A DNA stretch of 41,675 nt from an uncultured bacterium (GCA_903930455.1 CAIYYT010000120.1:1-41675); one strand, 5' to 3'; shown: positions 945-41,675, counted from the first letter of the stretch. Made by a program: numbers and translations. The notes: generated by a model not told the origin, from the sequence alone.

Positions 945-958
945 GTAGAACGATCCTA

Positions 959-2725
959 TCAGGAAAGCGTCAGACCAACGCGAATTTCGTCCGCCACTTT
1001 CTGCCAGAGTTGTTGATGCTGTGTGAGATTGAGTTGGCGATCGCTGACTACCTCAATCAATTGTGATTCGCTGCTTGCCTGCGCCTGGGACAATTGCTGC
1101 TGGAACTCGGCGAAATGAGGGGCAATACAATGCGACAATCCGAATTGTCCGGCGATCTTTGCAAACGACATTCCGTGCGGTGTGCCGAAGTATGATTCAA
1201 AATGGCTTTTGGTTTTGGCAATCGGCAGAAACGAGAAAATGCCGCCACCGTTGTTGTTGATAACGACAATGGTGATTGGCTGCTGCGAGCGCTTCGCCAA
1301 CACCAGCGAATTGAGATCATGAAGCAGCGCCAAATCGCCAATCACGAGAGTTACAGGTCGCTGCAGGCCGTCGGCAAATCCCACCGCGCTTGCGATGGTG
1401 CCGTCGATGCCATTGACACCGCGATTCGCAGCGACCGGCAGCAGAAGATCACCTTGACAAACACCCGCCTCGGCGTCACGAATCGGCATACTGGTTGCAA
1501 GATACACGCCGCGCAGATCGCGGCTCTGCAAGAACACTTCGCGTGCAACGGCCAGCTCAAGTGACTGATTGGACTGGGCGGCAACAAAATCACGCAACAC
1601 TTTGCCTGCGATATGATCGGAAGCTGTCAGCGTCTCAGTCAGAGTCGACCGGTTGGCACTTACAATGCCAGCCAGATACGTGGCGAATGCTATCGGATCG
1701 GCTTCGATTCTATCGCTAACAACATGCTCGACATCCTGACGGAAGGGATGATCATTGACGACAATCCAGCGCGTACGACTGCCGCTAAGATATCGCAAGA
1801 GATGCTTTGATATGGGAGTACCGCCGAATTGCAGGATGCAATCGGGGGCTAGAGCTGTGCGCACTTCGGGAATGCGGAGATGAAGATCGTAGTGGCAGAG
1901 CAAATTCTCCGAGTGAGCGCCATAGCTACGCAAGCCGGAACAGATGTCGGCGAACACCGGCCAGTCGAGTTTCGCTGCCAGTCTCAAGATGCTGCTCTTG
2001 TCTTTCCAGCTCGGCAGTGTGCCAACGACGATGGCGCCTTTCCTTGCGGCGGCGATTTTGCGAGCAACGTTACCAACATCATACGAGCCAGCGCTTTCTG
2101 GAGATGCGTAGGTCGTATGTTGTCTTTCTGAGTGAGACCAAGTCACAATCGGAGCGAGATATGTACTCCAGTCGGTGGCTGTACCGGTTGGCGCCAATGG
2201 TTCGCGGAACAAACAGTTTAGATGCACAGCGCCAGCGGGAGAGCGTTGTGCACGGTAGCAAGCTTGATCAACTGTCGTCAAGACGAATGCGGGGGCGATA
2301 TTCTCATCCGGTGTCGGTAGAGTAAATGCCCAGCGAGCATATTTGCCGAAGATTCCCGTCTGGTCAATCGTCTGCAAAGCGCCAGTGTCCAACAACTCAG
2401 GGGGACGATCGGCACTAATGATGATCAGTGGCACACAAGACTGGCTGGCTTCGACAACGGCAGGAAAGCAATTGGCGACGGCAGTACCGGAAGTACAGAT
2501 CACAGCCGCAGGTTTGCCGGTGGCCCGGGCGTATCCCAACGCATAGAAGGCAGCGCCTCTTTCATCATAGTGAACAACGGTTTCGATTTTGCCATTCTCG
2601 GCGGCGGCGAGGGTAAGTGGTGTTGAGCGGGAACCGGGAGCGATGCAAATCCTGGTGATTCCGTTGCGCGCCAGCTCTTCGACAAGCAGCTTCGCCCAGA
2701 GCAGATTGATGTGATCAGCTTTCAT
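959..2725 (-). CDS. menD: MenD, SEPHCHC synthase
   Basis: A 588-residue thiamine-diphosphate enzyme that joins 2-oxoglutarate to isochorismate, the first committed step of menaquinone synthesis. It has the N-terminal ICIAPGSRSTPL motif (about 26-37), the HYDERGAAFYALGYA segment with the catalytic-site Glu, and the C-terminal VVINNNGGGIFSFLPI cofactor/Mg loop. Length is normal for the family. The ATG at 2725 is preferred over an in-frame codon 60 bases upstream, because it overlaps the menF stop as ATGA, has GGAGGA about six bases before it, and starts exactly at the family's conserved N-terminus. Translation is probably coupled to menF. Confidence 0.95.
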   Translation of the reverse strand: MKADHINLLWAKLLVEELARNGITRICIAPGSRSTPLTLAAAENGKIETVVHYDERGAAFYALGYARATGKPAAVICTSGTAVANCFPAVVEASQSCVPLIIISADRPPELLDTGALQTIDQTGIFGKYARWAFTLPTPDENIAPAFVLTTVDQACYRAQRSPAGAVHLNCLFREPLAPTGTATDWSTYLAPIVTWSHSERQHTTYASPESAGSYDVGNVARKIAAARKGAIVVGTLPSWKDKSSILRLAAKLDWPVFADICSGLRSYGAHSENLLCHYDLHLRIPEVRTALAPDCILQFGGTPISKHLLRYLSGSRTRWIVVNDHPFRQDVEHVVSDRIEADPIAFATYLAGIVSANRSTLTETLTASDHIAGKVLRDFVAAQSNQSLELAVAREVFLQSRDLRGVYLATSMPIRDAEAGVCQGDLLLPVAANRGVNGIDGTIASAVGFADGLQRPVTLVIGDLALLHDLNSLVLAKRSQQPITIVVINNNGGGIFSFLPIAKTKSHFESYFGTPHGMSFAKIAGQFGLSHCIAPHFAEFQQQLSQAQASSESQLIEVVSDRQLNLTQHQQLWQKVADEIRVGLTLS

Positions 2726-4149
2726 CGGTCTCCTCCAGCCAGCGCATTGATTGCCGGAGCAATCTTGTTTTCCAGTTCCTGCCACTCCGAATCGGGGTCG
2801 GAACCTTTGACTATTCCAGCGCCGGCAAACAGAGAGAGTGTCCTGCCGGTTATCAGACCGGAGCGAATCGCAACGGCCAGCTCGGTTGATTGATGCGAAA
2901 TCACTCCGACAGCCGAAGCATACCAGCCACGATCGAAACGCTCAATCTCTTTCAGCAGCGCCGACGCCGCTCTTGTGGGCGTGCCGCAAACGGCGGCAGT
3001 CGGATGAATGGCGGAAAGGATATCACTCGGGTTGATTGCGGGTTTGAGGGCACCTTCAAGGCGTGTGATCAGGTGTTGTACGTTTGATAATTGCAGGATT
3101 TCCGGGTCGCCGGTCGTTTCGACGGCGTTGCACAGTTCTGCGAGCTTCAGGTGTAGACCGTCGACGACATAACGCTGCTCGCGTTGATCCTTGCCACTGC
3201 CGAGCAGCTTTGCAGCATTGGCGGCTGTTTCTTTGGCATTGCTCCCGATTGCGGTGGTACCAGCGATTGCTTCGGTGACAAAATGATTGCCCGTCAATTG
3301 GAACAATAGTTCCGGCGTCAGCCCGACAAACGCGACCGTTCTGTTTGGCTGAAATAGAAACCCAAAGCAGCGTTTGCTCCGTGCGATCAGTGTCTCCAAG
3401 TAATGACATGGATCGAGAACACCCGACAACTGCAAGTCGCAACGTCGTGCCAACACAACCTTGTCAACTCTACCGGAATCGATTTCGGTCAAGACCGTCG
3501 TGATACCCGCGGACCACTGTTTACGATCGGGGGTATCGCTGCGTGCCATGATGTGTGGAAGCTGCTTGTCGGTTGTGTCGCCCTGATGGAAAAAGAGATC
3601 CAACGATTCGTATAGTCGCATTCGCACTTCGTCAATCTCGGAGATGCCATCCCAAAGTGTGGTAACGGTCAGAAAAAACCGGTCACTTTTGCGCGTGACG
3701 ATCACCTGCGGCAGCACAAACCAAAGACCGGGAAAAGAGTGCCAGAGTTGGTCAGGTGGTGTCTGCGGATCGAAACGAGTGCCACCGAAAAATCGCAGGA
3801 GAGGATTGTTCGGTTGCAGTTTCAAAATACGGTCGATGCGCTCAAAACTCGCAGCGAAATCCCCAGGACGGTCGGCTGTAATCGTGCACGCTGAGCCAAT
3901 GCCGGCAACTTCGAAATCACCATCACGATCGCGCCAGGCAACACGCGGGCAAACATTCACCCGTTGCAACCAGTGCAGGATATTGATTTTCTCGCAGCGG
4001 GTGGTGAAGCTGATGGGGATGGATTCAAACGAACCAGTCAGTTTTTCGAGAAGAGTGACCGCTTCCGTAACTTGCTGATCGATGCTCGCTTGAAACTTGG
4101 GAAGCAAGATCGAATGTGAACCGTGGCTCTTTCGGGAATCAGGCATCAT
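2722..4149 (-). CDS. menF: MenF, isochorismate synthase
   Basis: A 475-residue chorismate-utilising enzyme. The C-terminal half carries the family signatures: VDKVVLARR with the general-base Lys, TPELLF and EAIAGTT, the Thr/Ala stretch HPTAAVCGTPTRAA, the FDRGWYASAVGVI block and FAGAGIVKGSDPDSEWQE near the end. It isomerises chorismate to isochorismate with Mg2+ in the cytoplasm. Two adjacent ATGs (4149 and 4146) could start it. It lies six bases after the DAHP synthase stop with no good Shine-Dalgarno, so translational coupling is likely. EntC- or salicylate-synthase-like roles are possible for this fold, but MenD overlaps it by four bases, which fixes the pathway. Confidence 0.93.
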   Translation of the reverse strand: MMPDSRKSHGSHSILLPKFQASIDQQVTEAVTLLEKLTGSFESIPISFTTRCEKINILHWLQRVNVCPRVAWRDRDGDFEVAGIGSACTITADRPGDFAASFERIDRILKLQPNNPLLRFFGGTRFDPQTPPDQLWHSFPGLWFVLPQVIVTRKSDRFFLTVTTLWDGISEIDEVRMRLYESLDLFFHQGDTTDKQLPHIMARSDTPDRKQWSAGITTVLTEIDSGRVDKVVLARRCDLQLSGVLDPCHYLETLIARSKRCFGFLFQPNRTVAFVGLTPELLFQLTGNHFVTEAIAGTTAIGSNAKETAANAAKLLGSGKDQREQRYVVDGLHLKLAELCNAVETTGDPEILQLSNVQHLITRLEGALKPAINPSDILSAIHPTAAVCGTPTRAASALLKEIERFDRGWYASAVGVISHQSTELAVAIRSGLITGRTLSLFAGAGIVKGSDPDSEWQELENKIAPAINALAGGDR

Positions 4150-4155
4150 GGAATA

Positions 4156-5118
4156 TCAAGCGCCATTGCCGGCAAAAATGCGAGCCAAGTCTGGCAGCAA
4201 GATTGTGACCTGCTCCAGGGTCAGCGCTTGCTTGCCGTCGGAGAGTGCGCGCTGCGGTTGAGGATGCACTTCCAGCATGATCCCATCGGCGCCGGCAGCG
4301 GTTGCGGCTTTTGCCAATGGCGCCACCAGATCGGAGCGTCCCGCGGCGTGAGAAGGGTCGGCGATTACCGGATAAGACGTCTGTTGCTTCACTAGTACAA
4401 TGGCCGCGATATCGAGTGTATGCGCCACCTGCGGTTCGAAGGTGCGGATGCCACGTTCGCAAAGAATGATTTCGTCATTGCCACCGCGACTAACATACTC
4501 GGCTGCGGACAACCATTCGTCAATCGTTGCCGCCATGCCGCGTTTGAGCAATACCGGTCGCCGCATAGATCCGAGAGCCGTCAACAACGTGTAGTTGAAC
4601 ATGTTTCGCGACCCGACTTGCAGGATGTCGGCGTACTGGGCGACGGTGTCAATCTGTGATCGATCCATGACCTCGGTGACGACATACATGCCATGCAGAT
4701 CGGCGTATTTGCGGAGCAGCTCAAGCCCGGGCTTGCCGAGTCCCTGGAACGAATCGACCGAGGTGCGGGGCTTGAAGGCACCAGCGCGGAGATAGCGCAC
4801 ACCAAGCACGCTCAGGCGGGCAGCGGTCTCTGCCAATTGCTCTTCGTTTTCCACGGCACAAGGGCCGGCGATAATCGTCAGTTGTTGTCTCTTGAGCATT
4901 TGCGCATAACAGCCGGTCTCTTTCCCGCGTTTGATTGTCAGCTCCGGCGCGCTCCTGTTGATCTTGTCGAGCCTTTCACGCAGATCGCCGGTCAATGTCC
5001 CCAAGACTCGCACGACCGCGGCATCGTGCACGGAGATTTCATAATCGATGCCTGCTTCCTGCAGCATCTGGATGAAGTTCTCCTTGCGCCTATCGTTTAT
5101 CGCGAAACTGTAAATCAA
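4156..5118 (-). CDS. aroF: DAHP synthase (3-deoxy-7-phosphoheptulonate synthase), Thermotoga-like class
   Basis: A 320-residue DAHP synthase condensing PEP and erythrose 4-phosphate, the entry to the shikimate pathway. Residues 1-70 form a ferredoxin-like/ACT-type regulatory domain (the type found in the Thermotoga maritima enzyme and its relatives). The barrel then shows AGPCAVE, LRAGAFKPRTSVDSFQGLG, QVGSRNMFNY, LLKRGMAAT, ILCERGIRTFE and VIADPSHAAGRSD with EVHPQPQRALSDG. The start is TTG at 5118, overlapping the ubiE stop as TTGA, with GGGAAG about six bases upstream. It sits inside the menaquinone operon, which suggests co-expression of chorismate supply with isochorismate synthase. Feedback control by aromatic amino acids is expected from the N-terminal domain but not proven here. 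Confidence 0.93.
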   Translation of the reverse strand: MIYSFAINDRRKENFIQMLQEAGIDYEISVHDAAVVRVLGTLTGDLRERLDKINRSAPELTIKRGKETGCYAQMLKRQQLTIIAGPCAVENEEQLAETAARLSVLGVRYLRAGAFKPRTSVDSFQGLGKPGLELLRKYADLHGMYVVTEVMDRSQIDTVAQYADILQVGSRNMFNYTLLTALGSMRRPVLLKRGMAATIDEWLSAAEYVSRGGNDEIILCERGIRTFEPQVAHTLDIAAIVLVKQQTSYPVIADPSHAAGRSDLVAPLAKAATAAGADGIMLEVHPQPQRALSDGKQALTLEQVTILLPDLARIFAGNGA

Positions 5119-5891
5119 AGCTTTCTTCCCGTGTAGATCGTTACGATACCAAAGCTGACCGGCTCGGCGACAACTTCAACAAAACCGGCGTGTCTCATCA
5201 GCTTGCAAAAAGCCTCGCCCTGTGCATAGGTTTCGATAGTCTGATCAAGATAGCGGTAAGCATACTCATCGCCCGAGATGATTCTCCCGACAGTGGGTAC
5301 GATACGACGTAGATAGAAGCGGTGCAGCGATCGCAGTATTCGATTCGAGGGGAGCGAGAACTCCAGCACGACGGCTTTGCCGCCGAGATTCAGGAGTCGG
5401 TGAATTTCCCCAAGACACACGGAAGTGTCGGGCATGTTGCGAATGCCAAACGCGATCATGGCAGCATCAAAGCTTGCATCTTTGATGGGGAGTGTCATGC
5501 CGTCTCCGAGGATAAGCGAGATTGAGTTAGCGCGACGCCGAGCGATTTTGTCGGCAGCAAGTTGCAGCATCTGTTGAGCTCTGTCGATTGCGATCACTCG
5601 GCAGCCATTGCTCAGCCGATGTGCCGCCGCCAGCGCCAGGTCACCAGTACCGCAGGCGAGATCGAGAATTTGTTGACTCGGCTTTCGGTCCAGTTTGTCA
5701 ACGGCGCGACGTCGCCAGTAGAAATCAAGGCCGAGCGAAAGCAGGTGATTGAGCAAGTCATAACGACGAGAGATGCGATCGAACATCTGGTGTACGTTCG
5801 CCCTCGACGGTGCAGCCGGTGTATTCGTCGTTATCAGCCGTTCGTTCGTAATTGTCTCGTTGCTAATCGCCATCAAAACAAACCCAGTCAT
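5115..5891 (-). CDS. ubiE: UbiE/MenG demethylmenaquinone C-methyltransferase
   Basis: A 258-residue class I SAM methyltransferase. Motif I is LDLACGTGDLA (about 76-86). The UbiE signature, from VHQMFDRISRRYDLLNHLLS, lies at about 33-52, and the GIRNMPD segment is also present. It methylates demethylmenaquinone in the last step of menaquinone synthesis. Two starts are possible, ATG at 5891 or ATG at 5873, and neither has a good ribosome-binding site; I kept the longer. It is the first gene of the men operon and overlaps the DAHP synthase by four bases. A promoter-like sequence lies about 60 bases upstream. With menD/menF in the operon, the MenG role is favoured over ubiquinone synthesis. Confidence 0.93.
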   Translation of the reverse strand: MTGFVLMAISNETITNERLITTNTPAAPSRANVHQMFDRISRRYDLLNHLLSLGLDFYWRRRAVDKLDRKPSQQILDLACGTGDLALAAAHRLSNGCRVIAIDRAQQMLQLAADKIARRRANSISLILGDGMTLPIKDASFDAAMIAFGIRNMPDTSVCLGEIHRLLNLGGKAVVLEFSLPSNRILRSLHRFYLRRIVPTVGRIISGDEYAYRYLDQTIETYAQGEAFCKLMRHAGFVEVVAEPVSFGIVTIYTGRKL

Positions 5892-12027: not shown

Positions 12028-13263
12028 ATGTTCAGGAAAGCTGGTATATTCGTGATTCTCTGTTGCGGGCTGCTGGTGGTACAGTGTTCTGACAAGTCCA
12101 CGTCCACCCCCACACCGACGCCAGGGCGCGATTTGACCGCGGTGGAGAAAGAGCTCGTTTCTTCAAGCAACAAGTTCGGGCTCAAACTTTTCAGAGAGAT
12201 TGTCTCGCAAGAGGGTAACAAGAACGTTTTTGTCTCGCCGTTGTCGGTAGCGATGGCACTCGGGATGACCTACAATGGCGCCAACGGCGCCACGCAGGAA
12301 GCGATGCAAAACACGCTCGGATTGCAGGGAATGTCGCTTGAGGATGTCAACAGATCGTATCGCAGTATAATCGATTCGCTGCGCGGGCTTGATTCCAAAG
12401 TCACGTTTCAGATCGCCAATTCGATTTGGTATCGTCAAGGATTCGAGGTCGAGTCGACCTTTGTCAATCTCAACCGGACTTACTTTGACGCCATAGTGCG
12501 GGCGCTTGATTTTGCCGATGCGTCGGCGGTCGCAACCATCAATGATTGGGTAAATGAGAGTACGAACGGGAAGATCAGTACGATCTTGGATGTGATTCCT
12601 AAAGAAGCCGTCATGTACCTCATCGACGCTATCTATTTCAAAGGAGTCTGGAAGTTCAAATTCGATCCGGCTGAAACCAGTGCGCGGCCCTTTTACTTGC
12701 CGGATGGATCGACGAAAACCTGTCAAATGATGAAGATGACCTGCGATGAAGTTGTTACGCTACGTACCGACAGCTTCTCTGCCGTAGATCTCAAGTACGG
12801 CGGCGGCGATTACAGCATGGCAATACTGCTGCCAAATTCAAGCACAAATCTCGAATCGATCATGGCTCAGCTTACGGACGAGAACTGGCAAACCTGGCTT
12901 GGGGAGTTTCAGTCGCGCGGGATGACGCTCTATCTTCCCAAATTCGAAATCGAGTACGAGAAATCACTAAACGATGCCTTGACTGCGCTGGGCTTAGGAA
13001 TTGCGTTTTCCGGGTCCGCCGACTTTACGGGAATCAATCGGCTGGGAAATCTTGCGATATCGGAAGTGAAGCATAAGACGTATGTAAAGGTTGACGAGGA
13101 GGGAACTGAAGCGGCAGCCGTTACCTCCGTGGGAGTTTGGGTAACGTACCAGCCCTCTGGCCTTGATGTCAATCGGCCGTTCCTGTTCGTCATACACGAA
13201 AATCATTCCGGTACGATTCTGTTTATGGGGAAGATCGTTGATCCGACCGTGAAGACGATGTAA
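12028..13263 (+). CDS. Lipoprotein serpin (serine/cysteine protease inhibitor)
   Basis: 411 residues. A signal peptide with lipobox VVQC (Cys20) and a Ser/Thr/Pro linker precede a complete serpin fold from about 38. It has the NVFVSPLSVAMALGMTYNGA block (66-85), an FKGVWKFKFDP block (204-214) and the C-terminal RPFLFVIHENHSGTILFMGK block (383-402). The reactive-centre hinge EEGTEAAAVTS (357-367) is the small-residue pattern of inhibitory serpins. Aligning its length with alpha-1-antitrypsin puts P1-P1' at Thr373-Tyr374, in a V-W-V-T-Y context. The target is unknown; an elastase- or chymotrypsin-like protease or a papain-type enzyme is plausible. GGGGAGG lies eight bases before the ATG. As a lipoprotein it would guard the envelope from the periplasm or the cell surface. 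Confidence 0.95.
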   Translation: MFRKAGIFVILCCGLLVVQCSDKSTSTPTPTPGRDLTAVEKELVSSSNKFGLKLFREIVSQEGNKNVFVSPLSVAMALGMTYNGANGATQEAMQNTLGLQGMSLEDVNRSYRSIIDSLRGLDSKVTFQIANSIWYRQGFEVESTFVNLNRTYFDAIVRALDFADASAVATINDWVNESTNGKISTILDVIPKEAVMYLIDAIYFKGVWKFKFDPAETSARPFYLPDGSTKTCQMMKMTCDEVVTLRTDSFSAVDLKYGGGDYSMAILLPNSSTNLESIMAQLTDENWQTWLGEFQSRGMTLYLPKFEIEYEKSLNDALTALGLGIAFSGSADFTGINRLGNLAISEVKHKTYVKVDEEGTEAAAVTSVGVWVTYQPSGLDVNRPFLFVIHENHSGTILFMGKIVDPTVKTM

Positions 13264-17043: not shown

Positions 17044-18237
17044 ATGAAGAAAGAACGTTTGAATAGTTTGATCGCGTTGGTGTCGATCACGATTGTTGCG
17101 ATGGCAATGGGCTTGTTGGTGAATGGGTGTTCGAAAGACTGCCCGACCTGCCCGAAGGAGGCGGAGAGAAAGCCCTACAAGGGGTGGTTGTATTACACAG
17201 ATGATTATTCAGACCAGACCAACCTTTACAAAGTCGACTTGGAGACTGACTCAATTGTGGATAGCATGAAACATGAGGACGTCGCTCTGTACGCGAATGG
17301 CGCCGCCGTATCGAGTGATGGCCGCTATTTGGCGGTCTGGTACAGTGACGTCATGATCACGCGCGGATCGACGCGTCTATACAATGCACAGACTCTCGGA
17401 TTAATCGGAGAACTGCCTCAACGACTGGGATGCTTTTTCGATGCCGAGGATCATTGGCTTCTTGGCCTCGATTTGGGTTTCGATATCAATAGCGCAGCCT
17501 ATCGAATCTCGCGGCTATCCATATCGAGTCTGACGACGATTTCAACGGATACCGTCAGCAATTTCTGGCCGATGATTATCGATCCGAGTCGCAATCTGCT
17601 CTATGGCAACGCCGTCCAGAACAGTTCCGCTCCCGCAGTTTATCCACGCGGATTCTACTCCTACAACTACGTCACCCACGAAATCGAGTCGATTCCTCTT
17701 CTCTGGTCGCCAACTGATACCATTAAAGATGTGTACTCGCTTTCCCTCAGTTCGAGCGGCGAAATCCTCTATTTCACCGTGGATGAACCTGCAGGCGTTA
17801 CCGTGTGGGGGGCAGCAGCAGGGGCATACAATCTGAACAGCCGCACCCTGCTTTGGTACTATCCGCTTGTGACCCCAATAGGTGGCATTGCCGTCTCGCC
17901 CGACGGAAGCGAAGTCTGGGTTACCGATCCCGGCCCCACCGGATACGAATGGAACTCGGGCACCATCTTCATTCTGGACGCCGCCACCGGCCGCTATCTA
18001 CAAGGTATCTCCATGTACGGATACCTACCCGATGCAAATCCCTATTACTGCCTACCGGGAAGGGAAATCGTTTTCGCTCCCACAGGGGATCGAGCCTATG
18101 TACAGGCAAGGCAAACGTTCACCAATCCGTACGGAACGGTGGTTGTGGTTGACACAAAAAAGCGGGCGATTGTGAAACTACTCAGACCGGACATGCACAG
18201 TGCACCCGGCAAATTGCTAATTTGCCCAAAAACCTAA
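17044..18237 (+). CDS. YVTN-like beta-propeller lipoprotein
   Basis: 397 residues. The signal peptide ends in a lipobox LVNGC (Cys29), followed by a short Cys-rich segment, SKDCPTCPKE. From about 45 the sequence repeats beta-propeller blades, with YTDDYSDQTNLYKVDLETDS, AAVSSDGRYLAVWYSD, IAVSPDGSEVWVTDPG, GTIFILDAATGRYL and GTVVVVDTKKRAIVKLL, the pattern of YVTN/SMP-30-like seven-bladed propellers. It is probably anchored to the outer membrane. Ligand and role are unknown; such propellers often bind partners or carry surface layers. AAGGAGA lies shortly before the ATG. A hairpin with four T residues follows its stop by 13 bases. Confidence 0.83.
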   Translation: MKKERLNSLIALVSITIVAMAMGLLVNGCSKDCPTCPKEAERKPYKGWLYYTDDYSDQTNLYKVDLETDSIVDSMKHEDVALYANGAAVSSDGRYLAVWYSDVMITRGSTRLYNAQTLGLIGELPQRLGCFFDAEDHWLLGLDLGFDINSAAYRISRLSISSLTTISTDTVSNFWPMIIDPSRNLLYGNAVQNSSAPAVYPRGFYSYNYVTHEIESIPLLWSPTDTIKDVYSLSLSSSGEILYFTVDEPAGVTVWGAAAGAYNLNSRTLLWYYPLVTPIGGIAVSPDGSEVWVTDPGPTGYEWNSGTIFILDAATGRYLQGISMYGYLPDANPYYCLPGREIVFAPTGDRAYVQARQTFTNPYGTVVVVDTKKRAIVKLLRPDMHSAPGKLLICPKT

Positions 18238-18246
18238 GATAGCCCC

Positions 18247-18356
18247 GTAGCCCACCTATAGCGAAGCGACAGGTGGGTTTTCTGACGTTACTCGCGACAA
18301 GAAGACAGCTGCCATGACAATTGAACCCACCCGACGCTGTGCTCTGGGTGGGCTAC
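18247..18356. repeat. REP/BIME-like pair of inverted palindromic units
   Basis: Unit 1 (18247-18281) reads GTAGCCCACCT, a GC-rich loop, AGGTGGGTTTTC. Unit 2 (18322-18356) is the same layout reversed: GAACCCACCC, loop, GGGTGGGCTAC. Outer ends GTAGCCCACC (18247-18256) and GGTGGGCTAC (18347-18356) are perfect inverted repeats. Each unit folds alone (7 bp) and the two can pair with each other. Head-to-head palindromes 65 bases apart are typical of BIME elements. It lies between the propeller lipoprotein and tldD. Confidence 0.65.
18251..18281 (+). terminator. Terminator of the propeller lipoprotein gene
   Basis: A 7-bp stem CCCACCT/AGGTGGG (18251-18257 with 18271-18277) is followed by TTTT and lies 13 bases after the stop codon. 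It is one unit of the repeat pair and probably serves as the intrinsic terminator. Confidence 0.6.
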
Positions 18357-18520
18357 CGGCTGAAAATGGTGGGAAATCGGGGTTTCCAAGCGTTTCGTGC
18401 GGGCTTGAGCCGGTACCGCGAGAAATTTCTTGTTCGGGATGCCCGGTTGGCGTATCCTTTGAGCCACATAAATCGTATTCAGAGACATTGATCTTAGGGC
18501 AGAGAGCCTTTGGAGGTGTG

Positions 18521-19963
18521 ATGAAAGGTAAGCTCAAAGAGTGTATCGAATGGTTGCGCGGCAAGGGTGTAACGTACGCGGACTGTCGGTATATTCGCAA
18601 AGAAAACGAAGCGATTCGAGTTTCGGACAGTGTTGTCGACTCGCTGTCGCGCAACATCGATGTCGGAGTGGGTATGCGCGTGTTGGCGGACGGCTGCTGG
18701 GGGTTTGCGGCGACCGCCATCGTGACGCCTGCCGAACTGATGAAGACGGCTAATCAGGCGCTGCAAGTTGCCAAGGCGTCGGCAGTGACAAAACATGATC
18801 CCGTGGTACTTGCCGAGCAAGAGCCGTTCGTCGACTTCTATCAGTCACCATGCGTTAGAGACCCGTTCGCAGTCCCCACAGATGAGAAAATCGGGTTGCT
18901 TGTGAAGGTGACCGACGTTTTGAAGAAGGCCAAGAAAATCAAGTCGGCAGAAGCTGCGATGAATTTCTTCAAGACGAATAAGCTATTTCTGTCGTCCGAA
19001 GGTGCGGATATAGAGCAGGAGATTGTCGAATCCGGCGCCGGCTACCATGCGGTGGCTTTTGACGGCAAGGAAGCGCAGACCCGCTCCTACCCCAACTCTC
19101 AGGGGGGTGATTACGCTACGCGAGGCTGGGAATTTGTCGAGGAGATGGAACTGCTCAGTCATACGGAGCGAGTGCGCGAAGAGGCGGTGGCGCTGTTGCA
19201 GGCGGCTCCTTGCCCGGAATGCGTGACGACAATTATCATCTGCGGGCCGCAAATGGCGCTGCAGATTCATGAATCATGCGGACATCCGATCGAACTTGAT
19301 CGGGTGCTCGGCACAGAGATATCGCTTGCCGGAGGATCGTTCCTGTCGCTTGACAAGCTGGGCAAACTCAAATACGGATCAGATATCGTCAACATCAATG
19401 CCGACGCCACGATACCCGGTGGACTTGGTAGTTTCGGTTACGACGACGAAGGGGTCAAAGCGCAGCGAACACCGATTGTTGAACGCGGTTTGTTTGTCGG
19501 TTACCTGACCGGCAGAGATACGGCGCCGGTGATCAAGCAGCGTTCCAACGGAGCGATGCGCGCCGATGGTTGGAATCGCATTCCGATTATCCGCATGACC
19601 AATATCAACCTTGAACCGGGGGAATGGACGCTGGCCAATCTGATCGCCGATACCGAGCGTGGCATTTTCCTGGATTTCAACAAGAGTTGGTCAATTGATG
19701 ACAAGCGGCTGAATTTCCAGTTTGGCGTTGAGTGCGCCTGGGAAATCAAGAATGGCAAGCTGGGACAGATGTACAAAAATGCGGTTTACACCGGAATAAC
19801 GCCAGAATTTTGGAACTCGTGTGATGCCATCTGCAACCGGGACCACTGGCGGGTGTGGGGTGTTGCCAACTGTGGCAAGGGTGAGCCGATGCAGTCCATG
19901 CATGTCGCGCACGGCACATCGCCCGCGCGTTTCCGCAATGTCAAGGTGGGGGTGAGCAAATGA
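18521..19963 (+). CDS. tldD: TldD metalloprotease subunit (cytoplasmic)
   Basis: 480 residues from the ATG at 18521, which has GGAGG four bases upstream. The frame is open for 69 codons further back, but that part runs through the repeat element and has no TldD similarity. The zinc motif is HESCGH (His250, Glu251, His255), followed by GGLGSFGYDDEG and the C-terminal ANCGKGEPMQ, whose Cys451 is the expected third ligand. TldD with TldE forms a cytoplasmic protease that digests unfolded peptides and matures some RiPPs (microcin B17) and the CcdA antitoxin in E. coli. It overlaps tldE by four bases (ATGA). No RiPP precursor is apparent nearby. There is no signal peptide. Confidence 0.94.
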   Translation: MKGKLKECIEWLRGKGVTYADCRYIRKENEAIRVSDSVVDSLSRNIDVGVGMRVLADGCWGFAATAIVTPAELMKTANQALQVAKASAVTKHDPVVLAEQEPFVDFYQSPCVRDPFAVPTDEKIGLLVKVTDVLKKAKKIKSAEAAMNFFKTNKLFLSSEGADIEQEIVESGAGYHAVAFDGKEAQTRSYPNSQGGDYATRGWEFVEEMELLSHTERVREEAVALLQAAPCPECVTTIIICGPQMALQIHESCGHPIELDRVLGTEISLAGGSFLSLDKLGKLKYGSDIVNINADATIPGGLGSFGYDDEGVKAQRTPIVERGLFVGYLTGRDTAPVIKQRSNGAMRADGWNRIPIIRMTNINLEPGEWTLANLIADTERGIFLDFNKSWSIDDKRLNFQFGVECAWEIKNGKLGQMYKNAVYTGITPEFWNSCDAICNRDHWRVWGVANCGKGEPMQSMHVAHGTSPARFRNVKVGVSK

Positions 19964-21312
19964 TAGGAAAAGAGAAACTCCTGAAGAAGCTCGAGTCTAT
20001 TCTGGCTCACTCTACCGCCGATCAGACAGAGATCGTTTATATTGGCGACGAATTCGGACTGACCCGTTTCGCGAATTCGTTTATTCATCAGAATGTGTAC
20101 GAGAACAACTGCCGCATCCTTTTCCGCACCGTGTTGGGTAAGCGTGTTGGTGTGGCGTCTACCAATTCACTGATTGATGCGGATCTCAGACAGACGCTCA
20201 ATAATTCGATCGAAATCGCACGCAGCCGAGCGGAGAATCCGAAGTTTCCGGGATTGCCGAAGGCAGCGAAGTACAAACCGTTCGCAACTTTCGACAAGGC
20301 AACGGCTCACTGCACGCCGATGCAACGCGCGAAGACCGTGCAGAAGGTGATTGCCGAGGCAACCAAGCACGGATTTACGATGGCCGGGGCATATTCGACT
20401 TCAAGCGGTGAGATCGCCATTGTTAATTCGCGGGGAGTGCGCGCATACCAGCCGGTGACCGCGGCATCGATCAATATGATCACGATGTCAGACACATCAT
20501 CGGGATATGCGTCGGCAGTCTCGCGCCGGGTTTCCGACATCGATTTCAAAGCGCTGGCCAAAATCGCTGTGGACAAATGCAAATTGTCGCAAAATCCGCA
20601 GGCGCTTGAGCCGGGTGAATATGAAGTCATCCTAGAACCGGCTGCCGTGGCAGAGGTGATGGGGTGGCTGAACTACACCGGCTTTGGCTCCAAATCGTTC
20701 CAGCAAGGGACATCATTCCTCGCCGGCCGCATCGGACGCAAGATCACATCGGAGAAGATAACGATCTATGACAATGCGCTTGATTCCAAAGCAATCGCCT
20801 TCCCCTTTGATTTCGAAGGAGTACCCAAGAAGAAGGTGATGCTGATCGATAAAGGTATTGCCAAAGGCGTTGTCTATGACAGCATGGCAGCGATCAAAGG
20901 CAAGACCAAATCTACCGGCCATGCGCTTCCGGCGACCGAAGCGGCCGAAGGCGCGATCGGTCTTAACATCGTCGTAGCTCCGGGCAAAACGCCAAGGGCA
21001 AAAATGCTTTCCAGGGTCAAGCGTGGGATTTTGGTGACGCGTTTCCACTACATCAACGGCTTGATCGACACACGCAATTCGGTCTTGACGGGTATGACAC
21101 GTGACGGCACGTTCTTGATTGAGAACGGTGAGATCAAGTACGGTATCAAGAACTTGCGCTTCACCGATTCTATGATGCGCGCTTTCAAGTCGACAGTCGC
21201 GGTCTCGAAGGAATCGCAACTAGTGGCCTCGGGGGGGAATTCGGTGGGCTGTGACTCGGTTCCGACAATCCATCTCGGTTCGTTTAAGTTCTCCGGCAAG
21301 ACGGAGTTTTGA
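19960..21312 (+). CDS. tldE: TldE/PmbA, catalytically inactive partner of TldD
   Basis: A 450-residue PmbA/TldE-family protein. It has an N-terminal domain with GDEFGLTRFANSFIHQNV, and GWLNYTGFGSKSFQQGTSFLAGRIG where TldD has its HExxxH. It also has FDFEGVPKKKVMLIDKG and a C-terminal SQLVASGGNSVGCDSVPTI. As usual for TldE it lacks the zinc motif and completes the chamber of the TldD/TldE heterodimer. The start overlaps the tldD stop. A 10-bp hairpin follows the stop. Confidence 0.92.
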   Translation: MIGKEKLLKKLESILAHSTADQTEIVYIGDEFGLTRFANSFIHQNVYENNCRILFRTVLGKRVGVASTNSLIDADLRQTLNNSIEIARSRAENPKFPGLPKAAKYKPFATFDKATAHCTPMQRAKTVQKVIAEATKHGFTMAGAYSTSSGEIAIVNSRGVRAYQPVTAASINMITMSDTSSGYASAVSRRVSDIDFKALAKIAVDKCKLSQNPQALEPGEYEVILEPAAVAEVMGWLNYTGFGSKSFQQGTSFLAGRIGRKITSEKITIYDNALDSKAIAFPFDFEGVPKKKVMLIDKGIAKGVVYDSMAAIKGKTKSTGHALPATEAAEGAIGLNIVVAPGKTPRAKMLSRVKRGILVTRFHYINGLIDTRNSVLTGMTRDGTFLIENGEIKYGIKNLRFTDSMMRAFKSTVAVSKESQLVASGGNSVGCDSVPTIHLGSFKFSGKTEF

Positions 21313-21380: not shown

Positions 21381-22274
21381 TCAGCTCGCACATTGGTTAC
21401 GGCCGGCGTTTTTGGCGCGGTAGAGTGCCTGATCGGCGAGCAGAGAGAATTCGTCCGGCGAAGCGACTTTCAGCGAGAGGGCGGCGGCGCCGACGCTGAT
21501 GGTGAAGAAAACGATTTTGTCTTTGACCAGAAAATCGGTCTTGCTCAATACAACTTGAATGCGCTTGCCCAGCGCCAGCGCATGCTCAACCGGCGTCTCG
21601 GGGCAGATAACCAGAAATTCGTCACCACCCAACCTACCGTAGTGATCCTCGAGGCGGAGGTGATCTTTGACGATGCGGCTGCTTTCGATCAGCATCTGGT
21701 CGCCGGCCAGATGTCCATAGGTGTCGTTGATCTCCTTGAAGCGATCGATGTCATAGATGAGAACGCTCAAGGGGCGATCATAGCGTCGGGCGCGGTTGAA
21801 TTCCTGTTCCAGTAGATTGATGATCTGTTGGCGGTTGGCGATGCCGGTGAGAAAGTCGGTGGTAGCGAGCGAATACATCTGCCCGAAAAATCGATTTTCG
21901 ACAAGGCTAGAGTGGATGAATTTGAAGAGCACTCGTCCAATCAGAACTAGATCGCCGTCGTTAAGAGGAATTTCGCTGACGCGTTTGGAGTTAACATAAG
22001 ACCCGTTGGTTGATTGCAGATCCGTCAGCCAGACCAGTCCATCACGGAAGTTGATCTCGGCGTGCTTGCGACTGACGTTGTCGTCTTCGATCTGGATGTC
22101 GCACTGGCTTGATCTGCCAATGGTCAAGACCGGCTGCTCAATCGTGAAAGTCTTGCCGAGTAGTGGCCCGTGTAATACCACGAGCATGGGTTGGCGATTG
22201 ATCGCAACATTAGCCGGCGTGCGATTTAGCGCCAGATTTGTGGCTGATGTCTGGTCGAAGTTTTCCTGTGGCAC
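21381..22274 (-). CDS. FHA-GGDEF diguanylate cyclase
   Basis: 297 residues. Residues 30-118 are a forkhead-associated domain (LTIGRSSQCDIQ, VSRKHAEI, STNGSYVN), which binds phosphothreonine. Residues 132-295 are a GGDEF domain with an intact active site GGDEF (216-220) and the inhibitory I-site RLED (207-210) exactly five residues before it. It should make cyclic di-GMP, with product inhibition, and be recruited or gated by a phosphothreonine protein. No Ser/Thr kinase is encoded nearby. The start is GTG with GAGGAAG about eight bases upstream. It is soluble, with no membrane segment. It follows the exported TldE-like gene by 206 bases on the same strand but a hairpin separates them. Confidence 0.94.
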   Translation of the reverse strand: MPQENFDQTSATNLALNRTPANVAINRQPMLVVLHGPLLGKTFTIEQPVLTIGRSSQCDIQIEDDNVSRKHAEINFRDGLVWLTDLQSTNGSYVNSKRVSEIPLNDGDLVLIGRVLFKFIHSSLVENRFFGQMYSLATTDFLTGIANRQQIINLLEQEFNRARRYDRPLSVLIYDIDRFKEINDTYGHLAGDQMLIESSRIVKDHLRLEDHYGRLGGDEFLVICPETPVEHALALGKRIQVVLSKTDFLVKDKIVFFTISVGAAALSLKVASPDEFSLLADQALYRAKNAGRNQCAS

Positions 22275-22480: not shown

Positions 22481-24253
22481 TTACTTGCCTGCGAGCGGCG
22501 AGGGAAGCAACGGTGGCTTCATGATTTTCTCTTCGTTCTTCTTGAGTTCCATTTCCTCGATCAGTACTGAGGGGGTAACGATCGATGCCGGCATCTCCGA
22601 GTCGTCATTCAGAAGGTAGTTGTAGACAAACATCTGATCGTCGGTCTGCAGAATGTCCTTGAGAATGCGGATGGTGACGTTGTTAAACTGAAGACCACGT
22701 ACCGGTTCTTCGCGTCCGTCGGGATAAACTTTGTAGATTTCCCAGGGGTAGCTCAAGGCATCCGGACCACCCGAACCACCTGAGCGCCGCATCATCATGT
22801 TACCAAGCCTCATCGCAATAGAGGCGTTGGACGCATTGGGGTCGCTCAAACGCTTGACAATCAAACCGTACGGCACATCGACATCCTTGCAGAGGGTGAT
22901 CAGCGTCTCCTTGAGTTTGGCATAGGGCACCTTCTCGCTCGATTCAAACACCAAATTGGACGGCTTGGCAGTAATCGCTTTGCTGACGGCGCCGCGCGCA
23001 TGACCGTTGGCATCCTTGATCTTCTTGGTCGGAGCAATTCCGATCAGCAGGTTAACCAGTTTGCCGTTTTCCACCAGCACCACCTTCTGCGGGGTATTGC
23101 CGGCATCATCCACATTGTAGCCACCAATCACGGATGAATTGCCAACCTTGCTAATAGTCGGATCATCGTACACCGTAAACGAAGCCGGCAAGACGCGACG
23201 GTTGAGTTTCTCGGCAAGCTCACCTCCACCGCCACCAAGTCGGGCGATCACCGCAGCCATTTGCTCATTTTCATAGGTCGGCTGCGGTAGGTTGGATATG
23301 CCGCGAACAAACAGTTGGCGGAAGAATTCACCGGCGGCATCAGCGGTGAAAACTACGGGACCAATGTACTCTTCGAGGGTATCTGCTTTGATCAGCTTGC
23401 TCATCCTGTCGGCATTGCCTTTTGCCCAGGCGGTCAGATCGCTGACCGAGGGTATAGCTGCGAGAGAGTTGTAGACGATCCGGTCGCCGTCGAAGATATC
23501 TTCGCCGTCCGCCGCTTTGCCCGTCATCGACAAGTCAAAGACATAGATCCGGTCGCCTCGCAAAGCACGTGTACCGTTACCGTTGAGGAGATACTGGTTG
23601 GCGATAGCACCCTGAATTTTCAGATCGGAAGAGATAATATCGGGATAGTCCCTGAACACGACGGTTGCAGCCTTTGCCAGCTCTTCGAACTTCGCCTTGT
23701 TGAGATCGAATTCCTCCGGCTTGTCGATGATTCGATTTGTCGGCAGTTTGAGGAAGTCATCCGGACGATTGGCAATGACGCGGGTTTGGAGGTAAGCCCG
23801 CTTTTTCGAGATCGTTTCCAGAGCGTCTTTGTAAACCTGATCGGTCTGCAAGTAGATCTGATTGCGGAGGGCGTCATAGTTGTTGTCGATTGGCAGTTGG
23901 GCATAGTTGGCGCCGAATCCGGAATAGCCAGATACGAAGTTGCTGTTGTCAAGCGAGTAGTTGCCCACTCTTAGATCAATAGACAGGTATCGTCCCCGGT
24001 TGAGGTTCGACTGGGTAAGCGTGCCCAGATTGGCGTGCACTTCGAGTTGTTGTGCATCGTCGATGGTATAGCTGACGAAGTAGGGTCTTTCAAGGTTCTC
24101 CATGACGAGCTGCGACATTGTACGATCGAGTTCGTCCTGCATGGCTTTGAAGAGCACGTCGCCGGCTTGCTGGGCATAAGCAAACGAAGCCATCCCAAGC
24201 AGAGCGGCAATAATGCCAACGACTATAGTTTTGCGTGAGTATCTGGTAATCAT
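22481..24253 (-). CDS. Exported TldE-like protein, zinc site lost
   Basis: 590 residues from the ATG at 24253. An ATG six bases earlier directly abuts the GAGGAGGGG ribosome-binding site, so the second is better placed. A Sec signal peptide (about 1-27, ending SFAYAQ) is followed by a TldD/PmbA-like fold. Where active relatives have YFHEIFGH this protein has FFRQLFVR (Arg312, Arg317). The C-terminal Cys ligand region reads LLNDDSEMPASIV without Cys. It therefore cannot bind zinc as TldD does. It begins 15 bases after the stop of the exported TldD-like gene, so the two are almost surely co-translated partners in the periplasm. It ends with a Lys/Pro-rich tail. Substrate unknown. Confidence 0.85.
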   Translation of the reverse strand: MITRYSRKTIVVGIIAALLGMASFAYAQQAGDVLFKAMQDELDRTMSQLVMENLERPYFVSYTIDDAQQLEVHANLGTLTQSNLNRGRYLSIDLRVGNYSLDNSNFVSGYSGFGANYAQLPIDNNYDALRNQIYLQTDQVYKDALETISKKRAYLQTRVIANRPDDFLKLPTNRIIDKPEEFDLNKAKFEELAKAATVVFRDYPDIISSDLKIQGAIANQYLLNGNGTRALRGDRIYVFDLSMTGKAADGEDIFDGDRIVYNSLAAIPSVSDLTAWAKGNADRMSKLIKADTLEEYIGPVVFTADAAGEFFRQLFVRGISNLPQPTYENEQMAAVIARLGGGGGELAEKLNRRVLPASFTVYDDPTISKVGNSSVIGGYNVDDAGNTPQKVVLVENGKLVNLLIGIAPTKKIKDANGHARGAVSKAITAKPSNLVFESSEKVPYAKLKETLITLCKDVDVPYGLIVKRLSDPNASNASIAMRLGNMMMRRSGGSGGPDALSYPWEIYKVYPDGREEPVRGLQFNNVTIRILKDILQTDDQMFVYNYLLNDDSEMPASIVTPSVLIEEMELKKNEEKIMKPPLLPSPLAGK

Positions 24254-24268
24254 CTTCATCCCCTCCTC

Positions 24269-25981
24269 TTAGTAAATCCCGCTGGTTTTTATCGGTTTGT
24301 AGGGAGGCGGCAAAATCGGCGGTTTCTGCTGCTCCTTGGACTTCTTCTCGACTTCCATTGAAGCGACCAGGATGCTGGGGGCAACAGCCGAAACCGGCAC
24401 CATACCCGACTCAGCACCACAGGTGCCGTTGAAGGCATCGTAATCATTGCCGGTGGCGATGATCTGCTCGAAACTCGCCAAGGGAGTGCCGACAATATCG
24501 ACGCCCCGAATCGCCTCCATCGGTCTGCCATCCGTGTAGTACTTGTACACCAACAGCGGAATGACTTTGAACGCCTGTGGGCCAGATCGCCCAGTTGATG
24601 TAAAACCGCCGGAGATATCATTGAAGATCAGTCCATACGGCTTGCCCTGTTTGCGACATTCTTCTTTGAGCAGCGTCAGAAGCGAGTCGAACGGCAATTC
24701 CTTGGTGGAACGAACCATGAGATTCCCCTGCCGAGAGACTACCGACCTGCCCGCTTGTTTGCGGCCATGAGCGTTGGAGACCGGGAATCCGCGCACCGGC
24801 GAACGTGACATCAGAAAGCTCTTCAGGACGCCATTATCGACTACGGTCACTTTCTCGGTTTTAACACCCTGGTCGTCGTAGAGGTAGTGTCCACGCAGGA
24901 ATTCGCCATTGAACTCCGACAATGTCGGGTCATCGAAAACACTGATAAAGTCGGGAAGGATTTTCTGATTGACTTTCTTCGCGAAGGTCTGTCCTTCAGA
25001 TTCGGATTTCTGGCGATGGCCTTCAATCCGATGACCGAAGATCTCATGGAAATAGACACCGGCGGCGCGATTGACCAGGATTGCCGGGCCAGAATACGGT
25101 TCCGCCAATGGGGCCTTCAACAGCACCTCCAACTCTCCGACCAGCCGGTGGATGGTCTTCACTACCACCGAATCAGTAGGCAGTCCGTCCATGGTTGCGG
25201 CGTCAAATCCTTCAAAGCGCTGGATTTGCATGCCGTCAGTGCACGTTCCTGAACAGAAAACGCTCAGCCGGACGTACGCTTGGCCTTGTTGAATCGAGGA
25301 ACCTTCGCTAGACACAAAGTAGCGATTGTCGTTGGTGATAGACATATTGACGGAGGAATTCTCGACAAATGGATAGTCCTTGAAAATGGCGCTCAATTCG
25401 CGCAATCGGGTTTCCCAGGCGGCCGTGTCGCAGGTAACTGCAACTGTGGAGCCGACGAAAACATTCGGTTTTTCGACGGAGAAATCCGCCGAAGTGTCTT
25501 CCTGCTCGACCATCACATCTTGATTTGTCTTAACCTTGGTATACTGTTCCAACGCCGTCTTGTATTCGTTGTCAGTTGCTTCCCAGATAGCCGTGCGGAT
25601 CGCCTTTTCGTCATCCTGCAAGGGCAACATCGTAGGCCCGCCGATGAAGGAGCCGTAATCGTAGCTGCCACGAATTTCGCGAGTGTTGTCGAGTCGATAG
25701 TCGCCGCAGCGCAGGTCCATATCGAGGATACGCGAGCGCGAGTAATCATCCATGCTGATCGCCCCATATGTGGCGCTGATCGTTCGCCTTTCAGTGTCGG
25801 TAACCTGATAGCTCAGGAAATACATCGGTACTGAGTCGGCATGAGCCAGCGTTTTCACCGAGCGATCCAACTCGGTTTTCATTGCAGTCAAGAGCGGTGA
25901 CTGCTCGACTGCGTAGAGAGAGGAGACTGCCAGCAACAAGATTGCCGTCAACAGCAGTCCTGCCGATCGTGTCCGCTTCAT
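24269..25981 (-). CDS. Exported TldD-like metalloprotease, zinc site intact
   Basis: 570 residues with a Sec signal peptide (about 1-24, SSLYA/VEQ). The family core contains AAGVYFHEIFGHRIEGH (zinc-motif residues His312, Glu313, His317), then PDFISVFDDPTL, GHYLYDDQG and SNAHGRKQAGRSVVSRQGNL. The C-terminal GTCGAESGMVPV contains Cys521 where the TldD Cys ligand is expected. All elements of an active zinc protease are present, but the protein should act outside the cytoplasm, unlike E. coli TldD. AGGAG lies seven bases before the ATG. It is first in a two-gene operon with the inactive exported partner, and is divergent from a receiver-domain gene. Both exported proteins end in Pro/Lys-rich tails. 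Confidence 0.88.
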   Translation of the reverse strand: MKRTRSAGLLLTAILLLAVSSLYAVEQSPLLTAMKTELDRSVKTLAHADSVPMYFLSYQVTDTERRTISATYGAISMDDYSRSRILDMDLRCGDYRLDNTREIRGSYDYGSFIGGPTMLPLQDDEKAIRTAIWEATDNEYKTALEQYTKVKTNQDVMVEQEDTSADFSVEKPNVFVGSTVAVTCDTAAWETRLRELSAIFKDYPFVENSSVNMSITNDNRYFVSSEGSSIQQGQAYVRLSVFCSGTCTDGMQIQRFEGFDAATMDGLPTDSVVVKTIHRLVGELEVLLKAPLAEPYSGPAILVNRAAGVYFHEIFGHRIEGHRQKSESEGQTFAKKVNQKILPDFISVFDDPTLSEFNGEFLRGHYLYDDQGVKTEKVTVVDNGVLKSFLMSRSPVRGFPVSNAHGRKQAGRSVVSRQGNLMVRSTKELPFDSLLTLLKEECRKQGKPYGLIFNDISGGFTSTGRSGPQAFKVIPLLVYKYYTDGRPMEAIRGVDIVGTPLASFEQIIATGNDYDAFNGTCGAESGMVPVSAVAPSILVASMEVEKKSKEQQKPPILPPPYKPIKTSGIY

Positions 25982-26168: not shown

Positions 26169-26909
26169 GTGACCAATCAGAAGACAAAAGTGCTGGTTGT
26201 AGACGATGACCCCAATCTCACCGACTTGCTGGTCGATACGTTGGCGGCCATCGGATATGAAGCTTTTGCCGCCGAGTCGGCCAAGACGGCCTTGGAGGTT
26301 CTCCGGAAAGAGCATATCGATTTGGTCGTATCCGACATCAATATGCCGGATATGTCCGGAATTGAGTTGCTTGAAGAGATCAAGAAGGCCAATCGTTATC
26401 TGCCGGTGATGCTGATAACCGGAATTGGCAACGATTCGATCAGGAACCGGGCCTATTCGAGCGGAGCCGACGGTTTTCTTACCAAGCCGTTTCGCATCGG
26501 AACGATTGAGTCGGAGATCGGCAGAATGCTGTCCGGCATCAAACGAACACGCATACTGATCATCGACGACAACGAGGATTTCCTCTCCAGTCTGAAGCAG
26601 CGATTGGAGGATGCCGACAACATCGTTTATCCTTTCGCGACGATTTCAAAAGCCGCAAAGTTCCTAGAGAGCCATACCGTTGATCTGGTAATCACGGACC
26701 TAAAGATGCCGGACGGAGATGGTTTCTCGCTCTTCAACGACCTTCATAAGCGTTACCCCGATCTACCTGTGATAATGGTCAGCGCCTATGCGACGGATGA
26801 CATCCTGGAGAAGATCAAAGAGTCGGGTGTCAGCAAGTTTCTGTCCAAGCCGTTAGATTTCAAAGAGATCGAGACCGTTGTCGCCACGTGCAAGTCAAGA
26901 AGCTCATAG
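26169..26909 (+). CDS. Tandem receiver-domain response regulator without output
   Basis: 246 residues made of two CheY-like domains. REC1 (about 6-120) has acidic cluster Asp12-14, phosphoacceptor Asp56, Thr84 and Lys106. REC2 (about 126-244) has Asp133-134, phosphoacceptor Asp177, Ser205 and Lys227. Both look competent for phosphorylation. No DNA-binding, cyclase or kinase domain follows. The only possible start in frame is GTG at 26169 (a stop codon lies nine bases upstream), and no Shine-Dalgarno precedes it, so translation may be leaderless. It may be a phosphorelay intermediate, a phosphate sink or a protein-interaction switch. It is divergent from the exported TldD-like gene, with 187 bases between. 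Confidence 0.88.
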   Translation: MTNQKTKVLVVDDDPNLTDLLVDTLAAIGYEAFAAESAKTALEVLRKEHIDLVVSDINMPDMSGIELLEEIKKANRYLPVMLITGIGNDSIRNRAYSSGADGFLTKPFRIGTIESEIGRMLSGIKRTRILIIDDNEDFLSSLKQRLEDADNIVYPFATISKAAKFLESHTVDLVITDLKMPDGDGFSLFNDLHKRYPDLPVIMVSAYATDDILEKIKESGVSKFLSKPLDFKEIETVVATCKSRSS

Positions 26910-40610: not shown

Positions 40611-41642
40611 TCACGGTTCCGTCTGTCGGTACTCTTCCACGATTCCCCAGACGTTGTTGACCTTGCCATCGATGTCCAGACGAGCACCCACCAGTGTCAG
40701 ACAGAGGCCGCCCTGGCGGACTGTCTTCCTGGTCCTCAGAATGATGGCATCGACGCTGAGTTCCACCGACTCGATTCCCATTGGCTCGGGAAGGCGCGAA
40801 CTCGAGTCTGTTTCCAGGAGGCCAACACGCACATGCTCAGAACCATCGGCGTACCGCAATGATCCAGCTGATGAGATGGAGACAAAATTCTTGAGAACGC
40901 CATTTCCAGCTGTTGTCGAATCTCCGGCAGCCAGAACGCGATATCCCGACATAGATGTCAAGGCAAACCACCTTTGATCGTTGTAACCCAGCTTGCTGGG
41001 GTCGGCAAACGGATTGTAACCCTCAATTTGCAGCAATTCGTAATAGACTGTTCCGGTGATTGTGTCGTTAGGCAATAGCAGCGTTCCCTGGCCGATTGCG
41101 TGACTTCGTCGGTCGATCACGCCGTTGCGAAGAGATTGCACGGGGGCCAAGCCGCTGAACTTCAAATCAAACTTGAGGTCATGACGGTCATAGGAGACTT
41201 CGCCGTTAGTGTATGGTTGCGTCCAGTTGAGCCCGCCAAACACGTAGGGGTAGTTTATATCCAGCCGCAAGGAGTCATGTCTCATCCGCGTGTAAGGCAG
41301 CGTGATCCAAACGCTACCATTATAGAGAAAGCCGGTGAAATCGCGTTCGGCGCGCTTGAATCGGTTATCGGCCAAGGCTCGACCAAACGTCACTGACAGA
41401 ACGTACCGCAGAGAATCCTGCTGCCCCAGAAACACTACATGATCGCATGTATAGTAGTTGTCATACTTGGAGTCCTGTCGAATGGAGTCGGGAATAAGCG
41501 CTCCGACATCCAGGCGAAAATCTTTGCTGACAATTCCCGACCGGGGGTCGAATTTGCTGTCCGGCCTTGTGCTGCAACCGGCAAACAGCAATGCCGAGGC
41601 TAACAGAGAGCTGACCAGACAGATAAGGCGTTGTGTCGTCAT
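40611..41642 (-). CDS. Lipoprotein of unknown function, beta-rich
   Basis: 343 residues from the ATG at 41642. A TTG six codons upstream is possible but would put a Cys and polar residues before the signal peptide. The signal peptide ends in lipobox LFAGC (Cys23). The mature part is predicted to be mostly beta strands, with many aromatic residues (YTCDHVVFLGQQD, YPYVFGGLNWTQPY, GTVYYELLQIEGYNPF) and no enzyme motif I recognise. Lipocalin- or CrtC/AttH-like folds are possible but unproven. It is the first visible gene of a pair with the DUF6125 gene; 33 bases upstream reach the window edge, so a further upstream gene may exist. Confidence 0.75.
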   Translation of the reverse strand: MTTQRLICLVSSLLASALLFAGCSTRPDSKFDPRSGIVSKDFRLDVGALIPDSIRQDSKYDNYYTCDHVVFLGQQDSLRYVLSVTFGRALADNRFKRAERDFTGFLYNGSVWITLPYTRMRHDSLRLDINYPYVFGGLNWTQPYTNGEVSYDRHDLKFDLKFSGLAPVQSLRNGVIDRRSHAIGQGTLLLPNDTITGTVYYELLQIEGYNPFADPSKLGYNDQRWFALTSMSGYRVLAAGDSTTAGNGVLKNFVSISSAGSLRYADGSEHVRVGLLETDSSSRLPEPMGIESVELSVDAIILRTRKTVRQGGLCLTLVGARLDIDGKVNNVWGIVEEYRQTEP

Positions 41643-41675
41643 TGACAAGCATGGTAACAAACCGGACTACCGTGA

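Follow-up and report, generated by a model that had tools for sequence, protein, structure and literature searches.

Does the TldD/TldE pair, known as a cytosolic machine, have an exported counterpart, and if so, is the dead half of that counterpart related to TldE or of separate origin? Two adjacent genes on the minus strand of a genome fragment from the candidate phylum Zixibacteria raise this question. The open reading frame of gene A (24269..25981) encodes a TldD-like catalytic subunit of 570 aa with predicted export, and that of gene B (22481..24259) a predicted exported and catalytically dead partner of 592 aa; all positions are counted along the window, which is the whole 41,675-nucleotide stretch of DNA that was analysed. 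A sequence-only reading had described the two as an active/dead pair re-created for the envelope, and this description has since gained support from the adjacency of the genes, their co-occurrence, natural fusions, confident structural models and the tree. We put the probability at about two in three that A and B form an exported, metal-dependent peptidase heterodimer working like cytosolic TldD/TldE.

Both proteins belong to the TldD/PmbA superfamily, as judged by the C-terminal TldD/PmbA domain PF19289, which scores 98.1 bits in A and 66.1 bits in B (cutoff 22). Neither has a match at E<=0.001 to the N-terminal and central domains (PF01523 and PF19290), yet the predicted fold of both is still like that of full-length TldD. 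NCBIfam TldD equivalogs reach A with 89.7 of 635 and 43.9 of 513 bits, far under their cutoffs, and gene B has no NCBIfam match. Among solved structures searched by sequence, A finds E. coli TldD entries only (5nj5, phmmer E=6e-12) and B finds no relative; among plasmid-borne annotated genes, the only relatives are of the cytosolic type at <30% identity, and none covers 80% of the query. To general family models the exported form, though present in more than 12 phyla, shows up as no more than a remote C-terminal match to TldD/PmbA.

The window also holds an ordinary cytosolic-type pair outside the A/B system, which the sequence-only reading missed: a TldD (18314..19963, plus strand; HESCGH; likely start Met70 at 18521) that matches PF01523, PF19290 and PF19289, and a TldE/PmbA (19960..21312, plus strand; PF19289 154.7 bits) that overlaps it by 4 nt and falls in the TldE clade. 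This pair lies 1.2-7 kb from A/B, is convergent with it and ends about 1.2 kb from the A/B end, and an FHA-GGDEF gene (21381-22274) lies between the two pairs. PF19289 was found at seven places in the genome, two of which are pieces of one gene on contigs C70 and C72 (overlap 141 bp), so this Zixibacterium carries, besides the exported pair, two pairs of the cytosolic type. Adjoining gene A, and divergent from it, is a gene for a stand-alone protein with two tandem response-regulator receiver domains and no output domain (26169-26909, plus strand). Elsewhere in the window are a full-length serpin (12028-13263, plus strand; Pfam 384 bits), a member of an inhibitor family that is uncommon in bacteria, and a menaquinone-type cluster (147-5891, minus strand) of an alpha/beta hydrolase, a MenD-like TPP enzyme, a chorismate-binding enzyme and a UbiE-like methyltransferase, which includes a DAHP synthase gene. 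Two long ORFs (17044-18237, plus strand; 40611-41660, minus strand) have no Pfam match.

E. coli TldD binds its metal through His262, His267 and Cys454, and its clamp is anchored by Lys456 to Glu270 and Asp272 (PMC5810440). The metal site has its counterpart in A, where HEIFGH (residues 312-317; 25031..25048) is an HExxxH motif in which both His are predicted to bind the metal and the Glu to be catalytic, and Cys521 (24419..24421), within NGTCGAESG, is the predicted third ligand; H312, E313, H317 and C521 align with H262, E263, H267 and C454 of TldD, as expected from the earlier claim that A keeps both the motif and the cysteine. Twenty sequences were aligned from A and from S, a single active-type homologue found in other genomes: H312, E313, G316, H317 and Cys521 are invariant, the metal ligands are kept together with a further Glu (E320), and H322, A523 and E524 are also invariant, while some Myxococcota singles deviate from EGH with EGN. 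Gene B has RQLFVR (residues 314-319, R314 to R319; 23303..23320) at the position of HExxxH and a clamp that aligns without the Cys, which agrees with its earlier description as zinc-dead. The same division runs through the best 80 loci, taken from at least 583 relatives in a scan of named genomes: HExxGH is present in all 80 A proteins and NGxCGxE in 77 of them, and neither motif occurs in any B. A shared Cys (A442/B457) was considered as a possible inter-subunit disulfide and dropped, since one or both halves of the fusions lack it.

The clamp of A is the part of the site that departs from TldD, with CGAES in place of CGK and EGH in place of EGD. The E. coli tethers Asp272 and Lys456 are His322 and Ala523 in A, which counts against the peptidase reading. 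These differences would suit a pair that is exported without being a peptidase, with A as an amidohydrolase or N-deacetylase of some small or cell-wall molecule, and the TldD family does include N-deacetylases, some of them in natural-product pathways; a review by Vobruba et al. from 2022, cited in PMC10885120, reportedly places such enzymes within the family. However, the metal ligands and catalytic Glu are all kept in A, its predicted fold best matches the peptidase TldD, and the genes around the pair include no biosynthetic cluster, so that a non-peptidase A appears unlikely.

Genes A and B are closely coupled, with A upstream and B downstream. Directly after the stop codon of A, the 9-nt spacer GAGGAGGGG (24260..24268) separates the TAA of A from the ATG of B and is the ribosome-binding site of B, in agreement with the coupled operon proposed before; the spacers of nine related A-B pairs range from -4 to 36 nt. 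The two subunits also end alike in a proline motif: KPPILPPP in A (residues 553-560; 24302..24325) and KPPLLPSPLA in B (residues 581-590; 22490..22519). A [KR]PP[IL]LxxP-like tail is found in 75 of 78 A relatives, and related KPPxLPxP-like tails align in other B proteins, so the Pro/Lys-rich tails remarked on earlier are conserved motifs, more than a matter of composition. The sequence-only reading had further credited each subunit with 100-130 extra residues. Once the signal peptides are taken off, B is about 113 residues longer than E. coli TldE (450 aa), within that range, and A about 65 longer than E. coli TldD (481 aa), below it; in the predicted structure, the extra residues are mostly an N-terminal domain insertion around a long helix.

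Export is predicted from the N-termini, each of which has the form of a Sec signal peptide: MKRTRSAG-LLLTAILLLAVSS-LYA^VEQ in A (residues 1-24; 25910..25981) and MKMITRYSRK-TIVVGIIAALLGMAS-FAYA^QQ in B (residues 1-29; 24173..24259). By a home-made hydrophobicity rule rather than SignalP, such a signal-type hydrophobic N-terminus is present in 74 of 79 A relatives and in 65 of 65 B relatives and is kept in S as well, a pattern that extends to nearly all relatives the signal peptides first noticed in this one pair. Judged by this heuristic, A and B would not be cytosolic, unlike the TldD/TldE heterodimer, and their location is probably periplasmic rather than secreted. With signal peptides judged by a simple hydrophobicity rule, and not by SignalP, and with their cleavage a prediction, the N-termini could be membrane anchors or unused, with A and B in the cytoplasm. 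That reading is highly improbable: Ala-x-Ala-type ends and hydrophobic cores occur in nearly all relatives and are absent from the in-window TldD and TldE, and natural fusions of the two genes lose only the B signal peptide, as expected if one suffices.

Three such natural A-B fusions were found, two in Eisenbacteria (L078 and L190) and one in Planctomycetota (L195). In each, the signal peptide of A is kept and that of B is gone, and a short linker joins the PPIL tail of A to mature B. With a single A signal peptide, both halves of a fusion would share one compartment. This arrangement is the outcome expected of selection for joint export, and the fusions are the best evidence at the level of sequence for contact between the A and B halves.

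The best 80 of the relatives come from Zixibacteria, Planctomycetota, Elusimicrobia, WOR-3, Cloacimonadota, Acidobacteria, Eisenbacteria, Electryonea, Calditrichaeota, Aminicenantes, Verrucomicrobia, Melainabacteria/Obscuribacterales, Ignavibacteria/Kapabacteria, Myxococcota and others, a span of more than 12 phyla according to the record titles of metagenome bins, which can be wrong. The adjacent arrangement noted in this one genome proved general, with B following A or fused to it at 73 of these 80 loci. Of the seven remaining, three have A at a contig end, L102, L111 and L128 have B elsewhere in the genome, and L064 is left over as the seventh. Among 58 related genomes, about a dozen carry the tandem pair and some others the single S. 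Sampling by phylum found the exported clade in 24 of 133 Zixibacteria genomes (14 of them with the pair), 7 of 47 from the Eisenbacteria group, 9 of 119 Planctomycetota, 18 of 119 Acidobacteria and, mostly as a single protein, 56 of 97 Myxococcota. The lone exported active-type form without B (loci L048-L056 and L199-L201) is known from Zixibacteria and Myxococcota. B is absent from the Zixibacteria that carry S, and in two of them (G005 and G039) S is the sole TldD-family protein found; six Myxococcota genomes that were checked each have one cytosolic pair and one exported protein. Searches of the pair flanks found no conserved third operon gene and no neighbor pointing to a substrate, and the largest flank clusters consisted of ORFs read in alternative frames of the A and B genes. 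In one Zixibacteria family (L045, L046, L047 and L059), a gene for an exported M16-type (insulinase-like) peptidase lies within a few kb of A/B, on the opposite strand.

The existence of S suggests that the active subunit may act without B. On this basis A could be a homodimer like the lone S, with B a separate exported binding protein or regulator and no structural half; S genomes without B favor this possibility, as does the separation of A and B in L102, L111 and L128. Against it, a B was found in every one of the 25 A genomes that were examined, the two genes are fused at three loci, the divergence of A is correlated with that of B (r=0.80, Mantel p=0.0005, from the distances within each), and joint models of the two are confident. 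An A homodimer with an independent B is thus quite unlikely. In 10 of the 25 A genomes no other TldD/TldE family protein was found, an absence that is provisional because most are metagenome bins.

The joint models support the heterodimer with a qualification of their own. Since A and B are in frame, the read-through of the window was modelled with AlphaFold as one two-subunit chain, giving a mean pLDDT of 87.4 and a pTM of 0.85, with poor confidence only at the linker (541-575) and in short loops; the fusion L078, from a differently built alignment, gave a pLDDT of 91.9 and a pTM of 0.88. Both alignments held unpaired rows, B-only in the window model and A-only in the L078 model, because the aligner stacked A-only and B-only rows on one half. 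By our estimate, two confidently folded but unplaced halves totalling 1142 residues (d0 ~11 A) would give a pTM of about 0.54, so the relative placement of the halves is confident. All 16 PDB fold matches at E<=0.001 are TldD, TldE or PmbA, with TM-scores of 0.66-0.76 by target length. However, dimers of TldD/TldE and of PmbA were part of the AlphaFold training data, and a confident two-half model is therefore no proof of A-B over A-A or B-B; the joint prediction called for by the sequence-only reading came out in its favor, and homodimers would also be compatible with it. Docking of B onto A is predicted, with support from the fusions and from the confident joint models.

A tree of 75 proteins (A 19, B 19, S 7, TldD 15 and TldE 15; 444 columns) bears on where the dead half came from. 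A, B and S together are separated from TldD and TldE by a branch of length 1.85 (support 100/100), and A, B and TldE each form a single group (100/97 or better). The shared fold and active/dead logic would by themselves suit the view that B is a TldE with an acquired signal peptide, the old split having been moved outside. This view is scarcely credible and is ruled out by the tree and the AU test: B is placed beside A and S and apart from TldE with 100/100 support, constraining B to join TldE lowers the log-likelihood by 178 units (AU p=0.0008), and mean identity is 28.7% between B and A compared with 15.4% between B and TldE. Lying outside the TldE clade, with that union rejected and no NCBIfam match, B is by these criteria not a TldE orthologue. 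Because B belongs with A and S, the active/dead split evolved twice, and the dead half, as far as phylogeny can tell, arose independently of TldE. This independent invention, its wide distribution and the existence of fusions go beyond what had been proposed for the locus. Support for the branching order among A, B and S is low (88/44), and S could accordingly be either a relic that predates the split or a form from which B has been lost.

We propose that an exported TldD-like ancestor underwent its own duplication into A and B, and that B lost its site independently. Made from one coupled operon and each exported by its own Sec signal peptide, the two proteins would pair in the envelope, probably in the periplasm, as a hollow heterodimer in which A gives the metal site (His312, His317 and Cys521) and Glu313 as general base. 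B, its site lost, would close the chamber and leave access to A to the ends of unfolded peptides alone. A would trim these peptides without ATP, on the model of E. coli TldD/E, whose closed chamber receives unfolded peptides that are then shortened from the N-terminus (PMC5810440). Substrates would presumably be envelope peptides; candidates are fragments of misfolded proteins, peptides from prey or food, or something specific. On balance, A/B is probably a TldD-type active/dead heterodimer that arose a second time, independently, and that serves many phyla as an ATP-independent, self-enclosed envelope peptidase and is the sole TldD-type enzyme in some members. If so, the exported version adds a self-compartmentalised peptidase to the envelope, a place without ATP where unfolded peptides still have to be cleared, and the TldD scaffold has repeatedly turned one copy into a dead lid. 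Given the separate origin of the dead partner, TldD/TldE and A/B would be a natural repeat of one evolutionary step. The lone S, carried by culturable Myxococcota, provides a contrast in which the dead half is missing; why TldD needs a dead partner becomes directly testable.

Among known systems, the closest is E. coli TldD/TldE (PmbA; MEROPS M103; PDB 5NJ5), which A/B resembles in fold, in having HExxxH and Cys in one subunit, in its dead partner and in its predicted hollow heterodimer. A/B differs in its predicted export, its N-terminal domain insertion, its conserved PPxLPxP tails, its CGAES/EGHR in place of CGK/EGD and the separate origin of its dead partner, and its mean identity to the TldD and TldE clades is 15-18%. 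The natural-product TldD-family enzymes, which carry out leader removal and N-deacetylation (PMC10885120), share family and metal motif with A/B; they act inside producer cells on precursors, whereas A/B has no surrounding biosynthetic cluster. In the searchable open literature, no activity measurement was found, and nothing direct on an exported TldD form apart from a report that M. xanthus MXAN_2519, a 'Peptidase U62' (an old family name), is OMV-enriched (PMC4158809). Myxococcus-type genomes that were searched have three members of the family, of which one is exported, and the OMV enrichment fits export if MXAN_2519 is the exported protein. The lone S, finally, recalls the TldD homodimer of Sulfolobus solfataricus (discussed in PMC5810440) as an active subunit on its own, the S. 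solfataricus form being cytosolic. In all these comparisons, A/B is a variant of a known machine.
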